Shown: piece by piece, positions 3,188 through 51,979 of the stretch
How positions within the stretch are numbered: the first letter of the stretch is position 1
Layout of the letters: each line of letters opens with the position of its first letter
Assembly (NCBI RefSeq): GCF_000092405.1
Contig: NC_014220.1
Span: forward strand, 496,001-560,000
Reading direction: 5' to 3'
Source of the DNA: Syntrophothermus lipocalidus DSM 12680
GTDB taxonomy: Bacteria; Bacillota; Syntrophomonadia; Syntrophomonadales; Syntrophothermaceae
Length of the DNA: 64,000 bases
Made by a program: the position numbers and the translations under genes
The notes under the pieces: generated by a model
Database searches by the model: none
What the model was told of the DNA's origin: nothing
Seen by the model: only the letters and a program-made list of their open reading frames with translations

Positions 3188-4078
3188 ATGGAGGAATACT
3201 TAGGGCTGTTCATAGGATACCTTAATTTTGAGCGGGGCTTGTCGGAAAATACTCTGCAAGCCTATCGACGCGATATCGGAAGCTTTCTGGTTTACTGCGA
3301 AAAGGAGCGCGGTATTTCCGATATTAGTCAGGTTAAGCGGCACGACGTGGTAGATTTTCTCGGATGGCTGCTCAAGGGCGGTAGGGCTTACTCTAGCCTG
3401 GCCCGAACCTTATCGGCTCTGAAATCGTTTTTTCGTTTTATGCAGAAGGAGAGGTACATTTTGACCAACCCCACCGATAACATCGAGAGCCCGCAAGTGG
3501 TTCGCCGCCTGCCCAGGGTTCTTTCTGTCTCTGAGGTGGAAAAGCTTCTGGAGCAGCCTAATCCGGTGACCGTTCGCGGTATAAGAGACAGGGCCATGCT
3601 GGAGCTCATGTATGCCACAGGGCTCAGGGTGTCGGAACTGCTGGCCTTGCAATTAGAGGATATTAACCTGGTTGCCGGCTTCGTACGCTGTTTAGGTAAA
3701 GGTCGAAAGGAACGTATCGTTCCTGTAAACAAGACTTCGGTCTTTTGGGTGGAGAGGTACATATCCAGGTCCCGGAATCACCTGGTCAAGAGTTCTTTAG
3801 AAAGGACGCTCTTCGTCAACGCCAAGGGGAAAAAACTTAGCCGGCAAGGGTTCTGGAAGATACTGAACGGTTACGCGCGACAGGCGGGGATAGAAAAAGA
3901 GATTCATCCTCACACGCTCCGCCATTCTTTCGCTACCCATCTCTTGGAAAATGGAGCAGACCTGAGAGCTGTTCAGGAAATGTTAGGACATGCAGATATC
4001 AGTACAACCCAGATCTATACCCATTTGACCAAGAGCCGGTTGAGGGAAGTATACGAGAAGAGCCACCCGCGGGCATAA
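3188..4078 (+). CDS. xerD: Site-specific tyrosine recombinase XerD
   Basis: A 296-residue recombinase, the usual XerD length. The N-terminal SAM-like core-binding domain (about 1-90) is followed by the catalytic domain with all six active residues: Arg147 (ATGLRVSEL), Lys171, His242 and Arg245 (HTLRHSF), His268 (LGHADIS) and nucleophile Tyr277. With XerC it resolves chromosome dimers at dif; no dif site was recognised in this window. The ATG follows GGAGAGGTG. The position after spoIIM and before deoB is the conserved place of xerD (ripX) in Firmicutes, which favours XerD over XerC. Confidence 0.92.
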   Translation: MEEYLGLFIGYLNFERGLSENTLQAYRRDIGSFLVYCEKERGISDISQVKRHDVVDFLGWLLKGGRAYSSLARTLSALKSFFRFMQKERYILTNPTDNIESPQVVRRLPRVLSVSEVEKLLEQPNPVTVRGIRDRAMLELMYATGLRVSELLALQLEDINLVAGFVRCLGKGRKERIVPVNKTSVFWVERYISRSRNHLVKSSLERTLFVNAKGKKLSRQGFWKILNGYARQAGIEKEIHPHTLRHSFATHLLENGADLRAVQEMLGHADISTTQIYTHLTKSRLREVYEKSHPRA

Positions 4079-4080
4079 AT

Positions 4081-4316
4081 GGAGGTTAGAGGCCCGAGGT
4101 AGGAGGTTAGAATGGAAGTTAGAAGTTGGAGGCTGGAGGCTAAATGGAGGTTGGAGGCCGGAATAGAAGTTAGAGGCCGGAAGTAGGAAGTTAGAATTGA
4201 AGTTGAGAGGTCATATGGGAGTTAGAAATGGGTGGTTGGAGGTTGGAATTGAGGCGGGAGGTTAGAATGGAAGTTGGAAGTTAGAGGTAGGAGATCGGGG
4301 CTCGGGGCTCGGAAAT
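4081..4316. repeat. Purine-rich degenerate tandem repeat (GGAGGTTAGA-like)
   Basis: About 235 bases between xerD and deoB consist almost only of A, G and T on the plus strand, with very few C. The segment is built from shuffled variants of GGAGGTTAGA, GGAAGTTAGA and GGAGGTTGGA, repeated roughly every 10-20 bases. It ends with a duplicated CGGGGCT. No open frame, promoter or hairpin explains it. It resembles a degenerate minisatellite. The 4317-4434 remainder holds only the deoB leader. Confidence 0.8.
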
Positions 4317-6945: not shown

Positions 6946-7091
6946 AAGGTCAGAGACAGATTTACGCAATAAGTTTTGGGTGAACATGTTTTAGCCAGCA
7001 GAAACGTGCCATAAAGAACACTTGTGATTTATAAAAAGTCTGGAAATGGAAGCTTTAAAAGGGTCTGCGTTAATCAGCGTCAAAAATAATG

Positions 7092-7745: not shown

Positions 7746-7890
7746 CGGGCAACTCCCTCCTTTAATCTTGTACATTTTATCCTTCGCCGTGAGTTGGCTA
7801 TTTACCTTCTACCGGCTTCAACAATACTCAGCAGGGTGACATGCCTCGAAAAACATTTTGCCGACGGAGTGTTAGCCAGCTCGCTCCAAG

Positions 7891-8013
7891 ACTCCTCCAC
7901 AGTTCCATTTTCATTCTCTAGTGGTGACTCTTTCAAGAGTCATGAGGGTCTGCGTGAATCAGCGTCCAATAAACATCAGTGCAAATCTTGGCTCATCTGC
8001 GTACATCTGTGGC
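7891..8013. repeat. Intergenic dispersed repeats: hairpin element plus TCTGCGT...ATCTGTGGC units
   Basis: Positions 7891-7954 (ACTCCTCCACAGT ... GGGTCTGCGTG) are about 80% identical to 35768-35831. The core TGACTCTTTCAAGAGTCA (7924-7941) is a near-perfect palindrome. It is followed by GGTCTGCGTGAATCAGCGTC (7947-7966) and CATCTGCGTACATCTGTGGC (7994-8013), units that recur in other gaps of this window. A further unit, TCTGCGTTAATCAGCGTC, lies at 7064-7081. No gene is present. Confidence 0.75.
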
Positions 8014-28379: not shown

Positions 28380-29645
28380 ATGCGAGTGATGATGCTTTCC
28401 TGGGAGTTTCCTCCAAGAGTGGTCGGGGGACTGGCTATGCACGTGTACGATTTGTCTACATCGATGGTTCGACAAGGACTGGAGGTAACGGTCGTAACCT
28501 GCGGCGGGTCAGAGTCACTGGAGAGAGAGAGGGTTGAAGGAGTAGAAGTATTGCGCGTTCGCCCTTATGACTTGCCTACCGCTGACATCCTGGGCTGGTC
28601 ACTTCAGTTGAACGTAGCTATCCTGGAAAGGGCCATAGACTATGTGAACCAGGAAGGAGAGGTGGATATAATACACGCTCACGACTGGTTGGTAGCATGC
28701 GCGGCTCGGGCGTTGAAACACGGCTACAGAATTCCTATGGTGGCTACTGTGCACGCTACCGAGTACGGGCGCAATAACGGGCTCCATAACCAGTTACAGA
28801 GAAGTATAAGTGACATCGAATGGTGGCTAACCTATGAAGCCTGGCGGGTCATATGTTGTTCTAGCTATATGGTCGATGAAGTGCGGCGGGTGTTTAATTT
28901 GCCTTCCGATAAAATACGTTTGATACCTAATGGGGTATACCCGGAAAGATTGCGGCAGAAGGAAGTGCCGACCGGTTTTAAAGATAGATGGGCCCTCCCT
29001 TACGAAAAGATAGTGTTTTTTGTGGGCAGGTTGGTGCCGGAAAAAGGGGTGCAAGTGCTTCTGGAGGCTGTGCCTAAAATTCTCGGGCATTGTCCTGAAG
29101 CAAAATTCGTTATCGCTGGAACCGGTCCTTTTCACGATTTCTTGCGACAAAAGGCAAACGACTTGGGTCTTGGGGATAAGGTCTGTTTCACAGGGTATAT
29201 CAGTGAAGAGGACCGTGACCGGCTGTACCAGGTAGCCGATGTAGCGGTCTTTCCCAGTCTTTACGAACCGTTTGGCATAGTAGCTCTCGAGGCCATGGCT
29301 GCAGGAACCCCGGTTGTGGTTTCGGACAGCGGTGGGTTAGCGGAGATAGTAAAAAACAACGAAGACGGGCTGTGGGCTATAACCGGGTCAGCCAATTCCC
29401 TGGCGGACAGGGTGATAGAGATATTAACAAACCGAGATCTAGCCCAAAAACTTGCCCACAATGCAATTGAGAAGGTGTACGCCCAATATGACTGGAGGAT
29501 AATCTCAGCTAAAACCGTGGAAGTGTACGAAGAAATTCTGAAAGAAAGCAAAAACAGCGGGTTTCGAGCTCCGCGCAAGTATGAATGGCCTTTTCGTCGG
29601 CAAAGCCTGGTTGCGAGGCGAGCCACAGACCCGGCACTCAGCTGA
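28380..29645 (+). CDS. GT4-family glycosyltransferase (glycogen synthase-like)
   Basis: A 421-residue GT-B enzyme. The N-terminal domain starts MRVMMLSWEFPPRVVGGLA, which carries the donor-binding glycine pair. The C-terminal domain has FVGRLVPEKGVQVLLEA and the EX7E motif EPFGIVALE. Members with this N-terminus are often annotated as glycogen synthase or sucrose-synthase-like; the sugar donor is not readable. The ATG at 28380 follows AGGAGGT. The last codons (ACAGACCCGGCACTCAGCTGA) lie inside the palindromic element at 29628, so the natural C-terminus has been rewritten by that element. Neighbouring CBM25-like proteins support alpha-glucan metabolism. Confidence 0.85.
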   Translation: MRVMMLSWEFPPRVVGGLAMHVYDLSTSMVRQGLEVTVVTCGGSESLERERVEGVEVLRVRPYDLPTADILGWSLQLNVAILERAIDYVNQEGEVDIIHAHDWLVACAARALKHGYRIPMVATVHATEYGRNNGLHNQLQRSISDIEWWLTYEAWRVICCSSYMVDEVRRVFNLPSDKIRLIPNGVYPERLRQKEVPTGFKDRWALPYEKIVFFVGRLVPEKGVQVLLEAVPKILGHCPEAKFVIAGTGPFHDFLRQKANDLGLGDKVCFTGYISEEDRDRLYQVADVAVFPSLYEPFGIVALEAMAAGTPVVVSDSGGLAEIVKNNEDGLWAITGSANSLADRVIEILTNRDLAQKLAHNAIEKVYAQYDWRIISAKTVEVYEEILKESKNSGFRAPRKYEWPFRRQSLVARRATDPALS

Positions 29646-29716
29646 CTGAAGTTGTAACATGACAGTAGGCTCCAAAACGCTAGTCAATAATCAAGATTTA
29701 AGCTGAGTGCCGGGTC
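29628..29716. repeat. 89-bp palindromic element, copy 1
   Basis: GACCCGGCACTCAGCT (29628-29643) and its exact reverse complement (29701-29716) enclose 57 bases. A second copy, inverted and about 88% identical over its whole length, lies at 35650-35736. No T run follows, so it is not a plain terminator. The left arm encodes the last residues and stop of the glycosyltransferase. No clear target-site duplication was seen. A non-autonomous (MITE-like) element or a mobile structured RNA are both possible. Confidence 0.85.
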
Positions 29717-35651: not shown

Positions 35652-35736
35652 CCCGGCACTCAGCTCTGCTCTTGATTAGCGACTAGCGTTTTCGGAACCT
35701 GCTCTCATGTTACAGCTTCAGTCAGCTGAGTGCCGG
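35650..35736. repeat. 87-bp palindromic element, copy 2 (inverted)
   Basis: GACCCGGCACTCAGCT (35650-35665) pairs with AGCTGAGTGCCGG (35724-35736). The reverse complement aligns with 29628-29716 with about ten differences. The GA of the preceding stop codon is shared with the element, the same 3'-end position as copy 1. Confidence 0.85.
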
Positions 35737-35767
35737 AGCTCGTCATACGTCGCTTCGCCCGGCTAAC

Positions 35768-35844
35768 ACTCCTCCACAGTCGCATTTTCATTCTCTAGTG
35801 GTGACTCGGATGAGAGTCATAAAGGTCTGTGTGTATCTGTGGCT
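35768..35844. repeat. Dispersed hairpin repeat upstream of the GalT-family gene
   Basis: It starts ACTCCTCCACAGT like 7891 and contains TGACTCGGATGAGAGTCA (stem TGACTC/GAGTCA). It ends with GGTCTGTGTGTATCTGTGGC, a variant of the TCTGCGT/ATCTGTGGC unit. It lies 40 bases before the galT-like start, so it may be part of its leader. Confidence 0.7.
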
Positions 35845-45935: not shown

Positions 45936-47087
45936 TTGAGGTTTTTACATACAGCCGATTGGCACCTGGGGCGGATTTTTTACGGGGTTCACCTGACTGA
46001 TGACCAGGCGTATGTTCTGGATGAACTGGTCAGGCTAGTGAAGGATACTGAGCCGGACGTGGTTTTAATCGCGGGGGATGTCTACGACCGGGCGGTGCCG
46101 CCGATCGAGGCGGTAAAGCTCCTGGACGATGTTCTAACCCGGCTGGTTATGGAGTGCGGGGTTCAGGTGATTCTGGTGGCGGGTAACCACGACAGCCCTG
46201 AAAGGCTGGGATTTGCCGGACGGCTACTGGTCACCCGGGGGTTACATATCGTGGGCAAGCCCAGAAATGATGCACAGCCTCTGGTGATTTACGATCAGTG
46301 GGGACCGGTTTATTTCTGCCCCATTCCCTATGCCGAGCCGCCGGTGATCCAGGAACGGTTCGGGATGCAAGAGGTAGGTAATCATGAGCAGGCCATGAAG
46401 GCCGTAGTTTCCCAAATGGTCAGCCGTCTTCCCCGGGGCGCAAGATCGGTTGCGGTAGCCCATGCGTTTGTGGCCGGGGCAGAGGCGAGCGAATCGGAGA
46501 GACCGTTGGCCGTCGGGACAGCAGGAACCGTGAGCCGGGAATGTTTCTTGACTTTTAACTACACCGCTCTGGGCCACCTTCACCGGCCGCAGTCGGCAGG
46601 TGGTGATAGCATCCGCTACTCGGGGTCTCTTTTGAAGTACTCGTTCGCCGAGGCTTCTCACCGCAAATCCGTAAGCTTGGTGGAGTTAGACGGGGAGGGG
46701 AACGTAACCCTGGAAGAGATACCTTTGTCTCCCCGGCGAGATGTCCGGTGCTTGGAAGGGTACCTGGCCGACCTTTTAAAGGGACCTCACGGTGGAGGTT
46801 CTTGCCACGATTACCTCATGATTACCCTCAACGATGAAGGGGCGATTCTCGATGCCATGGGCAGGCTGCGAGAAGTTTACCCGAATCTCCTTCACGTCGA
46901 CCGACCCCACCTTGTTCCGCGAGCGGAGAATATCCGCCCGTCAACAGACCACCGCAAAATGACGGTCTTAGATCTTTTTTCATCGTTTTTCGAGCAAGTG
47001 ACCTCCCGACCGCTGGCGCAAGAAGAGTCGAAGGCCTTCGCCCGAGTGGTTGAGGATTGGGGGCGAAAGGAGCGGGAAACGGAATGA
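45936..47087 (+). CDS. sbcD: Exonuclease SbcD (Mre11 family)
   Basis: A 383-residue metallophosphoesterase. It starts with RFLHTADWHLGR; further metal ligands lie in LIAGDVYDR, VAGNHDSPERL, AVAHAFV and ALGHLHRPQ. With SbcC it nicks and degrades hairpins and blocked DNA ends. The TTG at 45936 is chosen because TAGGAGGGG lies 6 bases upstream and the family begins here; the open frame to 45798 runs through the repeat. Its stop overlaps the sbcC ATG. Confidence 0.95.
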   Translation: MRFLHTADWHLGRIFYGVHLTDDQAYVLDELVRLVKDTEPDVVLIAGDVYDRAVPPIEAVKLLDDVLTRLVMECGVQVILVAGNHDSPERLGFAGRLLVTRGLHIVGKPRNDAQPLVIYDQWGPVYFCPIPYAEPPVIQERFGMQEVGNHEQAMKAVVSQMVSRLPRGARSVAVAHAFVAGAEASESERPLAVGTAGTVSRECFLTFNYTALGHLHRPQSAGGDSIRYSGSLLKYSFAEASHRKSVSLVELDGEGNVTLEEIPLSPRRDVRCLEGYLADLLKGPHGGGSCHDYLMITLNDEGAILDAMGRLREVYPNLLHVDRPHLVPRAENIRPSTDHRKMTVLDLFSSFFEQVTSRPLAQEESKAFARVVEDWGRKERETE

Positions 47088-50000
47088 AACCGATCAAGAT
47101 AATCGTGACCGCTTTTGGACCTTATGCCGGCACTCAGGTTGTGGACTTTAATGAACTGGGTGGACATTCCCTGTTTCTGGTTCACGGTCCTACCGGGGCC
47201 GGGAAAACCACGGTTCTCGATGCCATTTGTTTTGCCCTCTACGGTGAAACAACCAGTACGGGACGCGACGGTAAAAACATGCGCAGCCATCATTGTTCCC
47301 TCGGGGAAGAAACCAAGGTTGTTTTCGAGTTTGCCTTGGGAGACGGGGTTTACAAAGTGGAACGCTGGCCGGAACAGGAACGTCCCAGGCAACGGGGGCA
47401 GGGGACGAGGGTTCAGCCGGCAGCGGCGACGCTTTATCAGAAAGGGGTGTCATGTCAGGACGGGGAGTGGGCGGTTCTGGCATCTGGGGTAAATGCGGTA
47501 AACGAAAAAGTGGAAAGCCTTTTGGGTTTTACCGCCGCCGAGTTTCGCCAGGTGGTAGTCTTACCCCAGGGCGAGTTTCGCAAACTGTTAACGGCGAGTT
47601 CCCGGGAGCGCCAGGATATCCTCCAGACCCTCTTTCACATCGACAACTACGGCCGCATAGAGGAAGCCCTGCGGGAGTCCGCTGCGGAGGCCAAAAAACA
47701 AGTAGAAAAACTTTCTCAGCAGCGGAGTCTGATTCTGCAGGCAGCCGAAGCCCGGGACGCACAAGAATTGGAAGCAAGACGTCATCGGAGCGAGATGGAG
47801 CTGAAAGAGGTAGCCGAGGCCCTGGGAAAGGCCGCGGAGGAAGTTAAACGGAGGCAGCTGGTTCTAAACGAGGCCCAAAAGGTCGAGGAAAAAATTAAGG
47901 AAAAAGAAGAAGCGGAGACTGCTTGGATCCAACTCGAATCGCAAAGGGCTCAAATGGAGGCGGCGAAACGCGAGTTGGAACAGGCCAGAAGAGCGGCAGC
48001 CTTGGTCGATTTGGAGGAAGCGGTGCTATCGCGCCGAAAGGAGGCTGCCCGGCTAAAACAGGCAGTGGAAAAAAGCGATCGGGAGCTTAAAACCGCGAGG
48101 GAAAAGAAACAGTCGGCAGACCAGGCCTTGAAGAGCCACTTGGAACAGGAACCGGAAAGGGAAGATCTCCGGCAGAAACTGGGCTGGCTTCGAGACTTAC
48201 TGGAGAAGATAGAGCTTCTCCAAAACGCGCGCCAGGCCGAAAACCAAGCCTTTGCAGTTTTGAAGAAAGCAGAGGTGCGGTGGGACCAAGTCCAAAAGAA
48301 GGTTGCCGATATCGAAACCAGGCGGGAAGAGGTTATGAAAGCGCGCTTGGCGGCCTTAGAAGTGGCAGCAGAGGCTGGGGCTCGCGAAAAACAGTACCGG
48401 GACTGGGAAGAAAACCTACAGCGCCGCCAGCGGCTGGAAGAGTTGAGGCAGGAGCTGTCCTCTGTCCAAGAAAGCTATCAAACAGCAGAGCTGGCTCTTA
48501 GCCAAGCCCAGGAAGGTCTGAATCGGGCCCGGGGACGCTACAAAGAGGTGCAGGACAGTTGGGTGCGGGCCCAGGCGGTTGTCCTCGCTAACCAGCTGGT
48601 TCCCGGAAGGCCCTGCCCGGTTTGCGGATCAGTTGAGCACCCGGCGCCGGCTCAGGCGGCAGGTGAATTTCAGGGAGAAGATGCGTTGAGAGCCGCCGAA
48701 AGAGAATGGCAGCGGGCTGAGACGGGTTTCCAACGGGCGCTCAAAGAATTCAATTCCAGTTCTGCCCAAAAGAACACGGCTGAAAACAGGGTTCGGGATC
48801 TCGAAGCCGAGCTGGGGAACGTGGCGAAAACAGACATCCAGAGGCTTCAGGCCCGAGTTGTCGAGGCCAGACGCCTCTGGCAAGAAGCGCTCAAGGCCTC
48901 TCGGGACGCCGGAAGTTTGGCCTCGGAACTCCAAGAGCTGGAAAGGCAGGCGGGACAGGCTAAAGAAGAGGCATCTCGGATCGAAAAGGAGGTGAAAGAT
49001 GCGCAGGCGAAGTGGGAAACGGCTCGGGCGGTTCGGGAGGAGAGAGAAGCCGGGGTTCCGCCTGAGCTGAGGGAGAAACCTGTCATCGAAGCCGAAATCA
49101 GATCGGTTCAAACAAGGCTGAAAAGCCTGAACGATGCCTTAGAAAACGCCAGAAAAGATGCGGAAGAAGCGGGAAGGGCTGCGGCTCGTGCGGAAGCAAT
49201 GCTACAAGGATTAACTAATGAATTGGAAAGAACCGATACTCGGCTAAGAGAGGAGGAAACCCGTTTCTATTCACGCTTGCAAGAAAACGGGTTTCCCGAC
49301 TTGCATTCATACCACCATGCTCGGAAAGCCCTCGAAGAAATCGCCGAAATGGAGCAAGCAGTCAGCCAGTTCGAGCGAGCATTGCATACGGCCAAAGAGC
49401 GTTACGAGCGGGCCCGGAGGGCAGCAGAGGGGTTGCCCCCTCCAGATTTGCCAGCACTGGCGGCCGAACTAGAAATAGCCCGCAATAGGTGGGAACAACT
49501 GGAGACCAAAAAAATAGAACTGGAGAACGGTATCAGGGCCGACCAGAAATGGCTTAAGGCTTTGCTCAAGGTAGACGAAAAGCTGGAAAAAGCCGAAGCC
49601 GAATACGGGGTATTAGGTCGCCTGGCAGATGTGGCCAGCGGGAAAAACAGCCTCGGCCTTAGCTTCCGGAGGTTTGTACTAGGTGCTTTGCTGGACGATG
49701 TAGCCCTGGCCGCCAGCGAGAGGTTGAAGGTTATGAGCCGGGGACGTTACCAACTACGGAGGACGGTAGAGCGTACGAGAGCGCGGGGAGCTGCAGGATT
49801 GGACCTGGTTATATTCGATGCCTATACCGGACTGGAACGATCGGCAGCCACCCTGTCCGGAGGAGAAAGCTTTCTTGCTGCCTTATCCCTGGCCTTGGGT
49901 TTGGCCGACGTGGTAGAAAGCTATGCCGGGGGTATTCGGCTGGATACCATTTTCGTGGATGAAGGCTTTGGCAGCCTCGATCCGGAGACCCTGGACCTGG

Positions 50001-50146
50001 CTATGGATGCTCTAATCGACCTTCAACTATCTGGACGCCTGGTAGGTATCATTTCGCATGTACCGGAATTGAAGGAGAGGATTCCAGCCCGGCTCGAGAT
50101 ACGGCCTACAGAAAAAGGCAGCACCGCCCGGTTCGTGGTCGGCTAA
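47084..50146 (+). CDS. sbcC: Exonuclease SbcC (Rad50 family)
   Basis: A 1020-residue SMC-like ATPase. Walker A is GPTGAGKTT near residue 40. Two long coiled-coil arms flank the zinc hook PCPVCG at about residue 510. The C-terminal lobe has the ABC signature LSGGESF and Walker B IFVDEGFGSLD. It dimerises through the hook and gates SbcD nuclease activity. The ATG at 47084 overlaps the sbcD stop (ATGA). Confidence 0.95.
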   Translation: MKPIKIIVTAFGPYAGTQVVDFNELGGHSLFLVHGPTGAGKTTVLDAICFALYGETTSTGRDGKNMRSHHCSLGEETKVVFEFALGDGVYKVERWPEQERPRQRGQGTRVQPAAATLYQKGVSCQDGEWAVLASGVNAVNEKVESLLGFTAAEFRQVVVLPQGEFRKLLTASSRERQDILQTLFHIDNYGRIEEALRESAAEAKKQVEKLSQQRSLILQAAEARDAQELEARRHRSEMELKEVAEALGKAAEEVKRRQLVLNEAQKVEEKIKEKEEAETAWIQLESQRAQMEAAKRELEQARRAAALVDLEEAVLSRRKEAARLKQAVEKSDRELKTAREKKQSADQALKSHLEQEPEREDLRQKLGWLRDLLEKIELLQNARQAENQAFAVLKKAEVRWDQVQKKVADIETRREEVMKARLAALEVAAEAGAREKQYRDWEENLQRRQRLEELRQELSSVQESYQTAELALSQAQEGLNRARGRYKEVQDSWVRAQAVVLANQLVPGRPCPVCGSVEHPAPAQAAGEFQGEDALRAAEREWQRAETGFQRALKEFNSSSAQKNTAENRVRDLEAELGNVAKTDIQRLQARVVEARRLWQEALKASRDAGSLASELQELERQAGQAKEEASRIEKEVKDAQAKWETARAVREEREAGVPPELREKPVIEAEIRSVQTRLKSLNDALENARKDAEEAGRAAARAEAMLQGLTNELERTDTRLREEETRFYSRLQENGFPDLHSYHHARKALEEIAEMEQAVSQFERALHTAKERYERARRAAEGLPPPDLPALAAELEIARNRWEQLETKKIELENGIRADQKWLKALLKVDEKLEKAEAEYGVLGRLADVASGKNSLGLSFRRFVLGALLDDVALAASERLKVMSRGRYQLRRTVERTRARGAAGLDLVIFDAYTGLERSAATLSGGESFLAALSLALGLADVVESYAGGIRLDTIFVDEGFGSLDPETLDLAMDALIDLQLSGRLVGIISHVPELKERIPARLEIRPTEKGSTARFVVG

Positions 50147-50155
50147 AAGCATAAA

Positions 50156-50230
50156 GGCCCGCAAGCCTACCAGACGAACCGTGGATTACAGGGTATCATT
50201 ACCGACAGCCTGTAACCCAACTTGCGGGCC
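50156..50230. repeat. Stem-loop module A
   Basis: GGCCCGCAAG (50156-50165) and CTTGCGGGCC (50221-50230) form a perfect 10-bp outer stem. Inside, TTACAGG pairs with CCTGTAA. It lies 10 bases after sbcC. There is no T run, so it is not a standard terminator. Shared GAACCGTG and GGATTACA words link it to module D. Confidence 0.8.
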
Positions 50231-50235
50231 AACTT

Positions 50236-50342
50236 GAGCCGAAGGGATAACAGATACCCGGGATTTACTCTGTTTAACAGGAAAAGGATTTATCCTTTTA
50301 CAGGGACCTTTTCCTGTGAGGCTCTGCCTGCTTGATCCCTTC
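50236..50342. repeat. Stem-loop module B with possible pseudoknot
   Basis: GAAGGGAT (50241-50248) pairs with ATCCCTTC (50335-50342), and ACAGGAAAAGG (50277-50287) pairs perfectly with CCTTTTCCTGT (50307-50317). GAGCC (50236-50240) can pair with GGCTC (50320-50324), which crosses the first stem. Positions 50343-50525 contain no gene, one TCTGCGTCAATCAGCGTC unit (50487-50504) and a lone TTGACA at 50426. Confidence 0.7.
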
Positions 50343-50525
50343 AGCTACCCTTAGTATGTCCCCTTATCGCGGAGTAATTCGTTTTTCTTAACGAAAACAT
50401 CCAGGAAAATCATGGAAAAGAATGCTTGACATTCTTCGGTAAACGCGCACATTCGGATTCAATATATTAATTAATAAAAGAATAAGTCTGCGTCAATCAG
50501 CGTCTAATTTTATATGAAATAGAAA

Positions 50526-50604
50526 GACCCGCAAGCCATCTATATCAAACCGGTTATAACCGGATTTGAAGGGTTTCTACCGAGTAGAAGGCAGCTTGCG
50601 GGCC
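50526..50604. repeat. Stem-loop module C
   Basis: CCCGCAAGC (50528-50536) pairs with GCTTGCGGG (50594-50602); the arms are the same as in module A. Inside are the palindrome CCGGTTATAACCGG (50551-50564) and TTCTAC/GTAGAA (50575-50589), so the module can fold as a multi-branched structure. Confidence 0.8.
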
Positions 50605-50609
50605 TTTAA

Positions 50610-50702
50610 GAACCCGACTCCTGATGGCCATAAGGAATAGCGAACCGTGTCAAGTTACGCCAGACCTGGATTTACAAATCCCTGATGCCTCGAGTCGGGT
50701 TC
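50610..50702. repeat. Stem-loop module D
   Basis: GAACCCGACTC (50610-50620) and GAGTCGGGTTC (50692-50702) form a perfect 11-bp outer stem, with GGATTT/AATCC inside. It lies 5 bases after module C and about 130 bases before dacF. The stretch 50703-50833 holds the dacF leader with no convincing promoter. Confidence 0.8.
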
Positions 50703-50833
50703 TAGCTCTATTATTCCCCTGAAACCCAACGCTATACTCAGTTACCCGGCCAGCTGTTAACAGTTGCTTCACGAATAATACCGGCAACGAGAAAATAGAT
50801 TTTCAGTAAAAAGGGTACGAGGGGGGATAAATT

Positions 50834-51979
50834 ATGAAAACAAGAAAGCGGTTGTTGTGGTTGATGGCCTGGGTTTTGTTCTTTTCCCTGGCGTTTCCGA
50901 CGACCGCATGGGGCGCGGTGGTGGATGTTGAAGCCGATTCATACGTGCTGATGGACGCAGATTCCGGCAAGGTATTGTTAGCGAAAAACGAGCACAAGCG
51001 ACTTCCACCGGCCAGTATGACCAAGCTGATGACCCTAATTTTGGCTATGGAAGATCTATACAAAGGGAAAGTAGATTTAAAGGAGAAAGTGGTAGCCAGC
51101 GAAAACGCTTGGAAGCTCGGAGGGTCGCAGATTTACCTGGAACCTGGCGAAGAGATGACCTTTGAAGACATGGTGATAGCCATCGCGGTAGGGTCGGCCA
51201 ACGATGCCTGCGTGGCGGTAGCCGAACACTTGGACGGCAGTCACGAGGAGTTTGTTAAGAGGATGAACGCCAAAGCCAAAGAATTGAGGTTGAAAGACAC
51301 GCATTTCGTCAATGCTTACGGGTTACCTGATCCCGATCACTATTCTAGTGCCTACGACTTGGCGCTTATGGCCAGGTATGCCTTGTGTTATCCCAAACTC
51401 CTCGAGTTCACTTCCATCAAGGAATACAACCTGCGCCAAGGCGAGTTCAAGCTCTACAACACGAACAAACTCCTTTGGCATTATCCAGGTACTGATGGTT
51501 TCAAGACAGGTTGGACTAATGAGGCCAAGTTTTGCTTGGTATCCACGGCGAAACGTAACGGGCTGCGTCTTATTTGTGTAGTTATGGCTTCCCCCCAAAA
51601 AGGAGGAAATTTTCGGGATTCGATGAAGCTGTTTAATTACGGCTTTGCTAAGTATGCTTACCGTAGTTTCTTTGCACCGCAAAGCCAGTGCGGGCTGGTA
51701 AGTGTAGGCAAGGGAACCAACGACAGGGTCGAGGCCATATGCACGCAGGAGGTGGGTGCCAGTTGTTTGAAAGGTGAAGAAAAGAATATTACTTACAAAA
51801 GAAGCCTGGTGGACTATATCGATGCCCCGGTCAAGAAAGGTCAGAAGCTGGGAGAAATAAAAGTGTACAATTCGGGACGTTTGGTAAAGACTGTAGATTT
51901 AGTCGCATACCGGGATGTTGAGCGGTGTGGCATATGGAAGGAGATAACAAAAGCCATGAGCAAAATATTTTGTTTGTAA
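50834..51979 (+). CDS. dacF: D-alanyl-D-alanine carboxypeptidase (DacF type)
   Basis: A 381-residue penicillin-binding protein that trims the fifth D-Ala of peptidoglycan peptides. A signal peptide covers about residues 1-28 (basic start, hydrophobic core, cleavage near AWG-A). Active-site motifs are SMTK, SAN (VGSANDA) and KTG (FKTGWT), and a C-terminal beta-rich domain (PBP5_C type) follows. The position directly before spoIIAA-AB-sigF is that of Bacillus dacF, which acts in spore cortex formation. The ATG follows GAGGGGGGATAA. Confidence 0.93.
   Translation: MKTRKRLLWLMAWVLFFSLAFPTTAWGAVVDVEADSYVLMDADSGKVLLAKNEHKRLPPASMTKLMTLILAMEDLYKGKVDLKEKVVASENAWKLGGSQIYLEPGEEMTFEDMVIAIAVGSANDACVAVAEHLDGSHEEFVKRMNAKAKELRLKDTHFVNAYGLPDPDHYSSAYDLALMARYALCYPKLLEFTSIKEYNLRQGEFKLYNTNKLLWHYPGTDGFKTGWTNEAKFCLVSTAKRNGLRLICVVMASPQKGGNFRDSMKLFNYGFAKYAYRSFFAPQSQCGLVSVGKGTNDRVEAICTQEVGASCLKGEEKNITYKRSLVDYIDAPVKKGQKLGEIKVYNSGRLVKTVDLVAYRDVERCGIWKEITKAMSKIFCL

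Follow-up and report, generated by a model that had tools for sequence, protein, structure and literature searches.

The gap between sbcC (47057-50146) and dacF (50834-51979) of Syntrophothermus lipocalidus DSM 12680 holds four large stem-loops, modules A to D (50,152-50,703), which raises the question whether they are mobile hairpins, as an earlier sequence-only reading had proposed, parts of the neighbouring transcripts or genes of their own. The window considered here is a 64-kb stretch of this genome (G000, a single contig of 2,405,559 bp), and coordinates are given as window positions. Our analysis indicates that A-D pair up in tandem as A+B and C+D, each a unit of a predicted structured RNA of about 180-200 nt read from the minus strand, and that these units are probably independently promoted small RNA genes of the forespore, which would act in trans. 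Direct support comes from the covarying structure, the tandem duplication, the independence from gene context between families, and the match and placement of the promoters.

All four stem-loops were confirmed where the earlier reading had placed them. The arms of module A lie at 50156-50165/50221-50230, the outer stem of B (GAAGGGAT/ATCCCTTC) falls within about 50240-50346, the arms of C are at 50523-50536/50594-50607, and those of D, complementary at 12 of 12 positions, at 50609-50620/50692-50703. The array stretch folds better than all of 100 dinucleotide shuffles (z -5.8), and among 2000 shuffles of the region a perfect arm of at least 12 turned up 11 times. It is the conservation with compensatory changes in relatives which places the array far beyond chance. 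A covariance model (R2), built solely from eight units of a second family of the order and read on the minus strand, matches unit 2 (D then C; 50525..50703, minus strand) at full length (model positions 1-185, 54.6 bits, E-value 1.5e-13). Unit 1 (B then A; 50155..50348, minus strand) is matched with an E-value of about 1e-5 and reaches 29.6 bits without filters, and 24.2 bits over 50155-50325 with the filters on. These matches and the covariation in relatives bear out the suggested duplication, with A-B and C-D as its two copies.

Both-sided changes occur in 41 of the 57 pairs of a 15-unit alignment, with 97% of cells paired, which was equalled by none of 500 shuffles, and slid controls were paired at 31-50%; this alignment is fitted to the model, and the largest covariation figure rests on it. 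An unfitted alignment of eight units still contains 14 pairs with both-sided changes (as high in one of 500 shuffles), and its covariation score lies above all shuffles. It should be kept in mind that the units and genomes are related and hence not independent samples. The earlier idea of variable but complementary arms is thus borne out by compensatory changes, and the arms are conserved as pairs in relatives. The arm common to A and C was also found. Of the shared words, the match between A and D is present, but with 9 nt and a BLAST E-value of 0.02 it is at chance level as a sequence match, and the same holds for the GGATTTAC words among the modules; the shared words GAACCGTG and GGATTTAC were therefore set aside. 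A 457-bp element bounded by a 15-bp inverted repeat (50152-50166/50594-50608) was considered as well but dismissed, because the homologues consist of two distinct units; the inverted repeat exists because the arms of both unit copies resemble each other. BLAST found A-D to be single-copy in the genome.

The predicted RNA begins with a 5' domain (D or B), in which a stem of 11-13 pairs closes up to three hairpins; one of them has an asymmetric loop around UAANUCC, which is conserved among second-family units and also in A-B units. In unit 2 this domain is module D (50609..50703, minus strand), a 12-bp stem around inner hairpins, with both-sided changes in 11 of 11 pairs of helix 1. In unit 1 it is module B (50240..50347, minus strand), which is longer than its counterpart in other units and has 79% DNA identity in G003, a genome of the same family. 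After a short linker, a stem of about 12 pairs closes the three-way junction of the 3' domain (C or A), in which most units contain UUUGAUAU. In unit 2 this 3' domain is module C (50523..50608, minus strand), which shows both-sided changes in 7 of 13 pairs of helix 6 and is followed on the minus strand by the U-rich tract CUUUCUAUUUC; in unit 1 it is module A (50152..50234, minus strand), with UUUAUGCUUUU behind it on the same strand. Other examples of this tract are GGGCUUUUUU in L172 and GGGCCUUCUAUUUUU in L173. A shared reading frame among the units was looked for and none exists, which together with the covariation fits the structured, non-coding character of forespore small RNAs.

How these units might be expressed is suggested by the sequence GNATA-N14/15-GGNNANANTA, which stands directly upstream of 14 of the 15 units, ends 4-6 nt ahead of the RNA, and corresponds to the forespore promoter type of sigma-F/sigma-G. 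The letters of the forespore consensus used here are general knowledge. In C. difficile, sigma-F and sigma-G elements resemble one another and those of B. subtilis, an upstream G marking the sigma-F and a downstream A the sigma-G elements (PMC3789822), and 15 nt is the common spacing in B. subtilis sigma-F promoters (PMC5942855). The putative promoter of unit 2 (50709..50737, minus strand) consists of GTATA (50737-50733), 14 nt and GGGAATAATA (50718-50709) and ends 5 nt before the RNA; unit 1 has a -10-like box GGACATACTA (50352..50361, minus strand) 4 nt before the RNA. The boxes vary among units (GGTCATAATA, GGGCATATTA, GGGAATAATA, GGGTAAACTA, GGACAAACTA), and therefore it is the motif that is kept and not merely the sequence. 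Within the window, the strict pattern occurs only once, both strands included, namely at unit 2. Genome-wide, its GTATA version has three sites, unit 2's among them, compared to two for the reversed control; another of the three immediately precedes a LysM-M23 peptidase gene (L218:613-1512; G000 near 2324072).

As forespore-promoter control, spoIIR, a classical sigma-F target, served in place of dacF. The motif G.[AT]TA-N14/16-GG..A.A.T was detected in 22 of 30 spoIIR genes of the order, compared to 1% in shuffled sequence, and mostly 110-119 nt ahead of the conserved domain. Furthermore, spoVAC, which is a sigma-G target in Bacillus, carries in the window GTATA-N18-CATAATA 18 nt ahead of its start (53878), i.e. 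a sigma-G-like promoter.

The order sample comprised 63 genomes from three families, with Syntrophomonas and Thermosyntropha as named relatives. A DNA search found matches in G003 (79% over 150 bp, E-value 5e-28) and in G001, both of the window's family, and weaker ones in the second family (G006, G008, G010, G012). These loci have the same architecture of two tandem two-hairpin units, and G004 has one unit only. Altogether, the RNA is present in eight of the 63 genomes, three of four in the window's family, all five in the second and none in the third, and every carrier has a single locus, made up of one or two units. Among 398 genomes sampled from the phylum there were no further carriers, the large searches having run with stricter filters by which weak members may be lost. 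The array follows sbcC in G003, has an addA-like gene on one side and dacF on the other in G001, and in the second family stands beside a CBS-domain gene, with neither sbcC nor dacF there. This lack of a conserved context between families argues for an independent gene. The dacF loci of relatives were checked for an adjacent sbcC, and none was found. The remaining member of the window's family, G002, a draft of about 360 contigs, lacks the RNA, spoIIR and a close dacF; perhaps it is an asporogenous member which has lost sporulation, though this is one weak point.

In the window, the RNA genes lie just upstream of dacF, with the downstream order dacF-spoIIAA-spoIIAB-sigF-spoVAC-spoVAD, and their minus-strand reading runs towards sbcC, in convergent orientation, and diverges from the dacF-spoIIA-sigF operon. 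In the forespore, each unit would be driven by its own sigma-F/sigma-G type promoter, the transcript would start at the base of the 5' domain and continue through the linker into the 3' domain, and transcription would end at the U-rich tract behind the 3'-domain stem. Regarding the putative action in trans, the conserved unpaired stretches UAANUCC of the 5' domain and UUUGAUAU of the 3' domain may pair with forespore messenger RNAs, or the RNA may bind a protein; we regard both modes as about equally probable. Alternatively, this unusually elaborate lineage-specific spore RNA, with two multi-helix domains, conserved internal loops and usually tandem pairs, could be the scaffold of a spore ribonucleoprotein or be stored in the dormant spore rather than act as an ordinary antisense regulator, a possibility we consider unlikely.

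Could the same tandem minus-strand RNA serve outside the forespore, under another sigma factor and with a housekeeping or stress role? The evidence for the structure is indeed independent of the promoter assignment, and the motif is short and its strict pattern rare genome-wide, with hardly more sites than in the reversed control. Nevertheless, a motif of differing sequence is kept at a fixed distance in all units but one, it agrees with the motif of the order's spoIIR control, and the array region yielded no sigma-70-like promoter, so that we judge a role outside the forespore improbable. Still less probable is an RNA of the plus strand, either an element of the sbcC 3' untranslated region or a dacF leader. 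The array region folds well on both strands, and dacF or sbcC adjoins it in the window's family. However, both genes are missing at the locus in the second family, and the R2 score of the array is 54.6 bits for the minus strand but 9.1 bits for the plus strand, though minus-strand sequences were also what R2 was built from. When pairs predicted for both strands are counted, G-U exceeds A-C in the minus sense by 11 to 4 and 9 to 3, which moderately favours the minus strand, and promoters and U-tracts fit this strand only.

Two explanations remain. The sequence-only reading had suggested that A-D and the 29.6- and 35.65-kb elements form one family of mobile hairpins, a view for which the long complementary arms with ACCCG starts and the two tandem copies speak. 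A genuine interspersed hairpin family does exist in this genome: the elements at 29628-29716 and 35653-35736 belong to at least 40 copies, each roughly 85-110 bp long; their arms, CCCGGCACTCAGCT, are invariant and show no covariation, and their interiors differ. Genome-wide, the word CCGGCACTCA of these arms was counted 124 times and the reversed word 9 times. However, R1, the covariance model of this family, recovers the two members in the window with E-values of about 1e-24 and gives no match in A-D (E-values up to 10). Whereas the family's arms are invariant, those of A-D covary. Mobilisation of A-D is likewise unsupported, given one place per carrier, no match in the phages and plasmids searched, and sbcC and dacF-spoIIA-sigF as neighbours. 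Hence, we regard membership in this family as extremely unlikely. Hardly any probability remains for DNA-level hairpins, i.e. cruciforms acting as sites, for instance for SbcCD or replication. SbcCD cleaves DNA hairpins, and the palindromic arms adjoin sbcCD, but the sbcC neighbourhood is not kept, the inner helices covary with a one-strand G-U bias, and a promoter stands at the foot of each unit.

Several observations weigh against the forespore RNA genes favoured here. Unit 1 is the sole unit failing the strict -35/-10 pattern, its -35 element (GAATT) being degenerate; a forespore promoter was looked for as a control at the window's dacF and was not found; the U-tracts are weak in some units; and the strand bias in G-U pairs is only moderate, the units being related. 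Moreover, Syntrophothermus is not known to have been reported to form spores. The spore-forming third family lacks the RNA, although it has spoIIR; therefore, the RNA should be seen as a lineage-specific addition and not as general to sporulation.

Some further features of the window and genome deserve mention. Copies of the 29.6/35.65-kb family reside, as insertions resembling intervening sequences, within 16S ribosomal RNA (L150, L155, L156), 23S ribosomal RNA (L151, L152, L154) and RNase P RNA (L153), while copies between genes have ATCTGTGTTCATCTG / TCTGTGTNCATCTGTGGCT repeats at their flanks. In a 23S ribosomal RNA gene (L255:51-360; G000:C1:51455-51755), an open reading frame of 82 amino acids for a GIY-YIG nuclease (Pfam E-value 8e-14) stands between the same arms; it is a candidate mobiliser of this hairpin family, and arms with the same spacing are present at 747746-748046. 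A 73-bp intergenic repeat with 84% identity is found at 7888-7960 and 35765-35837, the latter copy directly following the 35.65-kb hairpin. The short repeat TCTGCGTTAATCAGCGTC at 50487-50506, which sits between the two RNA units, is found again at 7064, 7949 and 53790 and has about 40 genome matches. Finally, 4076-4293 is a degenerate GA-rich tandem repeat of four copies with a period of 51-52 bp.

Only few forespore small RNAs have been described; they are best known from Bacillus and have few or no confirmed targets (PMC9147052). The present analysis corrects the mobile-hairpin reading of the array and adds an RNA family of anaerobic syntrophic spore-formers with strong covariation, for which start and promoter are predicted to the base. 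Together with its natural presence or absence among relatives, these features make expression and function directly testable.

This RNA family is uncatalogued in Rfam: in release 15, no family reached the gathering cut-off for A-D or their homologues in cmscan searches of both strands, with listing limits at an E-value of 5 for the window region and of 1 for four homologous loci. The 6S RNA (RF00013) resembles the units in its similar length, its structure and a gene of its own. It has no match in the array region, and A-D were rejected as 6S RNA, as the genome has its own at G000:C1:809066-809251 and every other carrier has one elsewhere. The intervening-sequence-like hairpins of ribosomal RNA, to which the 29.6/35.65-kb family belongs, share with A-D a long stem closing a variable interior, whereas A-D are unmatched by their model, restricted to a single locus and covarying. 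Closer in kind are two RNAs of Bacillus. Bvs196/S547 of B. velezensis, a forespore small RNA of 294 nt with its own promoter under sigma-F and mainly sigma-G, is like A-D strongly structured with conserved stems and variable loops (PMC9147052); it differs in being a single gene known solely in Bacillus, and it is set beside A-D by description and not by sequence. CsfG, the ylbH element read on the other strand, is a forespore small RNA of about 136 nt which occurs singly between ylbG and ylbH (PMC3574147), and it was absent from the cmscan lists of the window region and the four homologous loci. Like A-D, CsfG is read from the strand opposite to its originally assigned gene; unlike this single RNA, A-D form two tandem two-domain units beside other genes.
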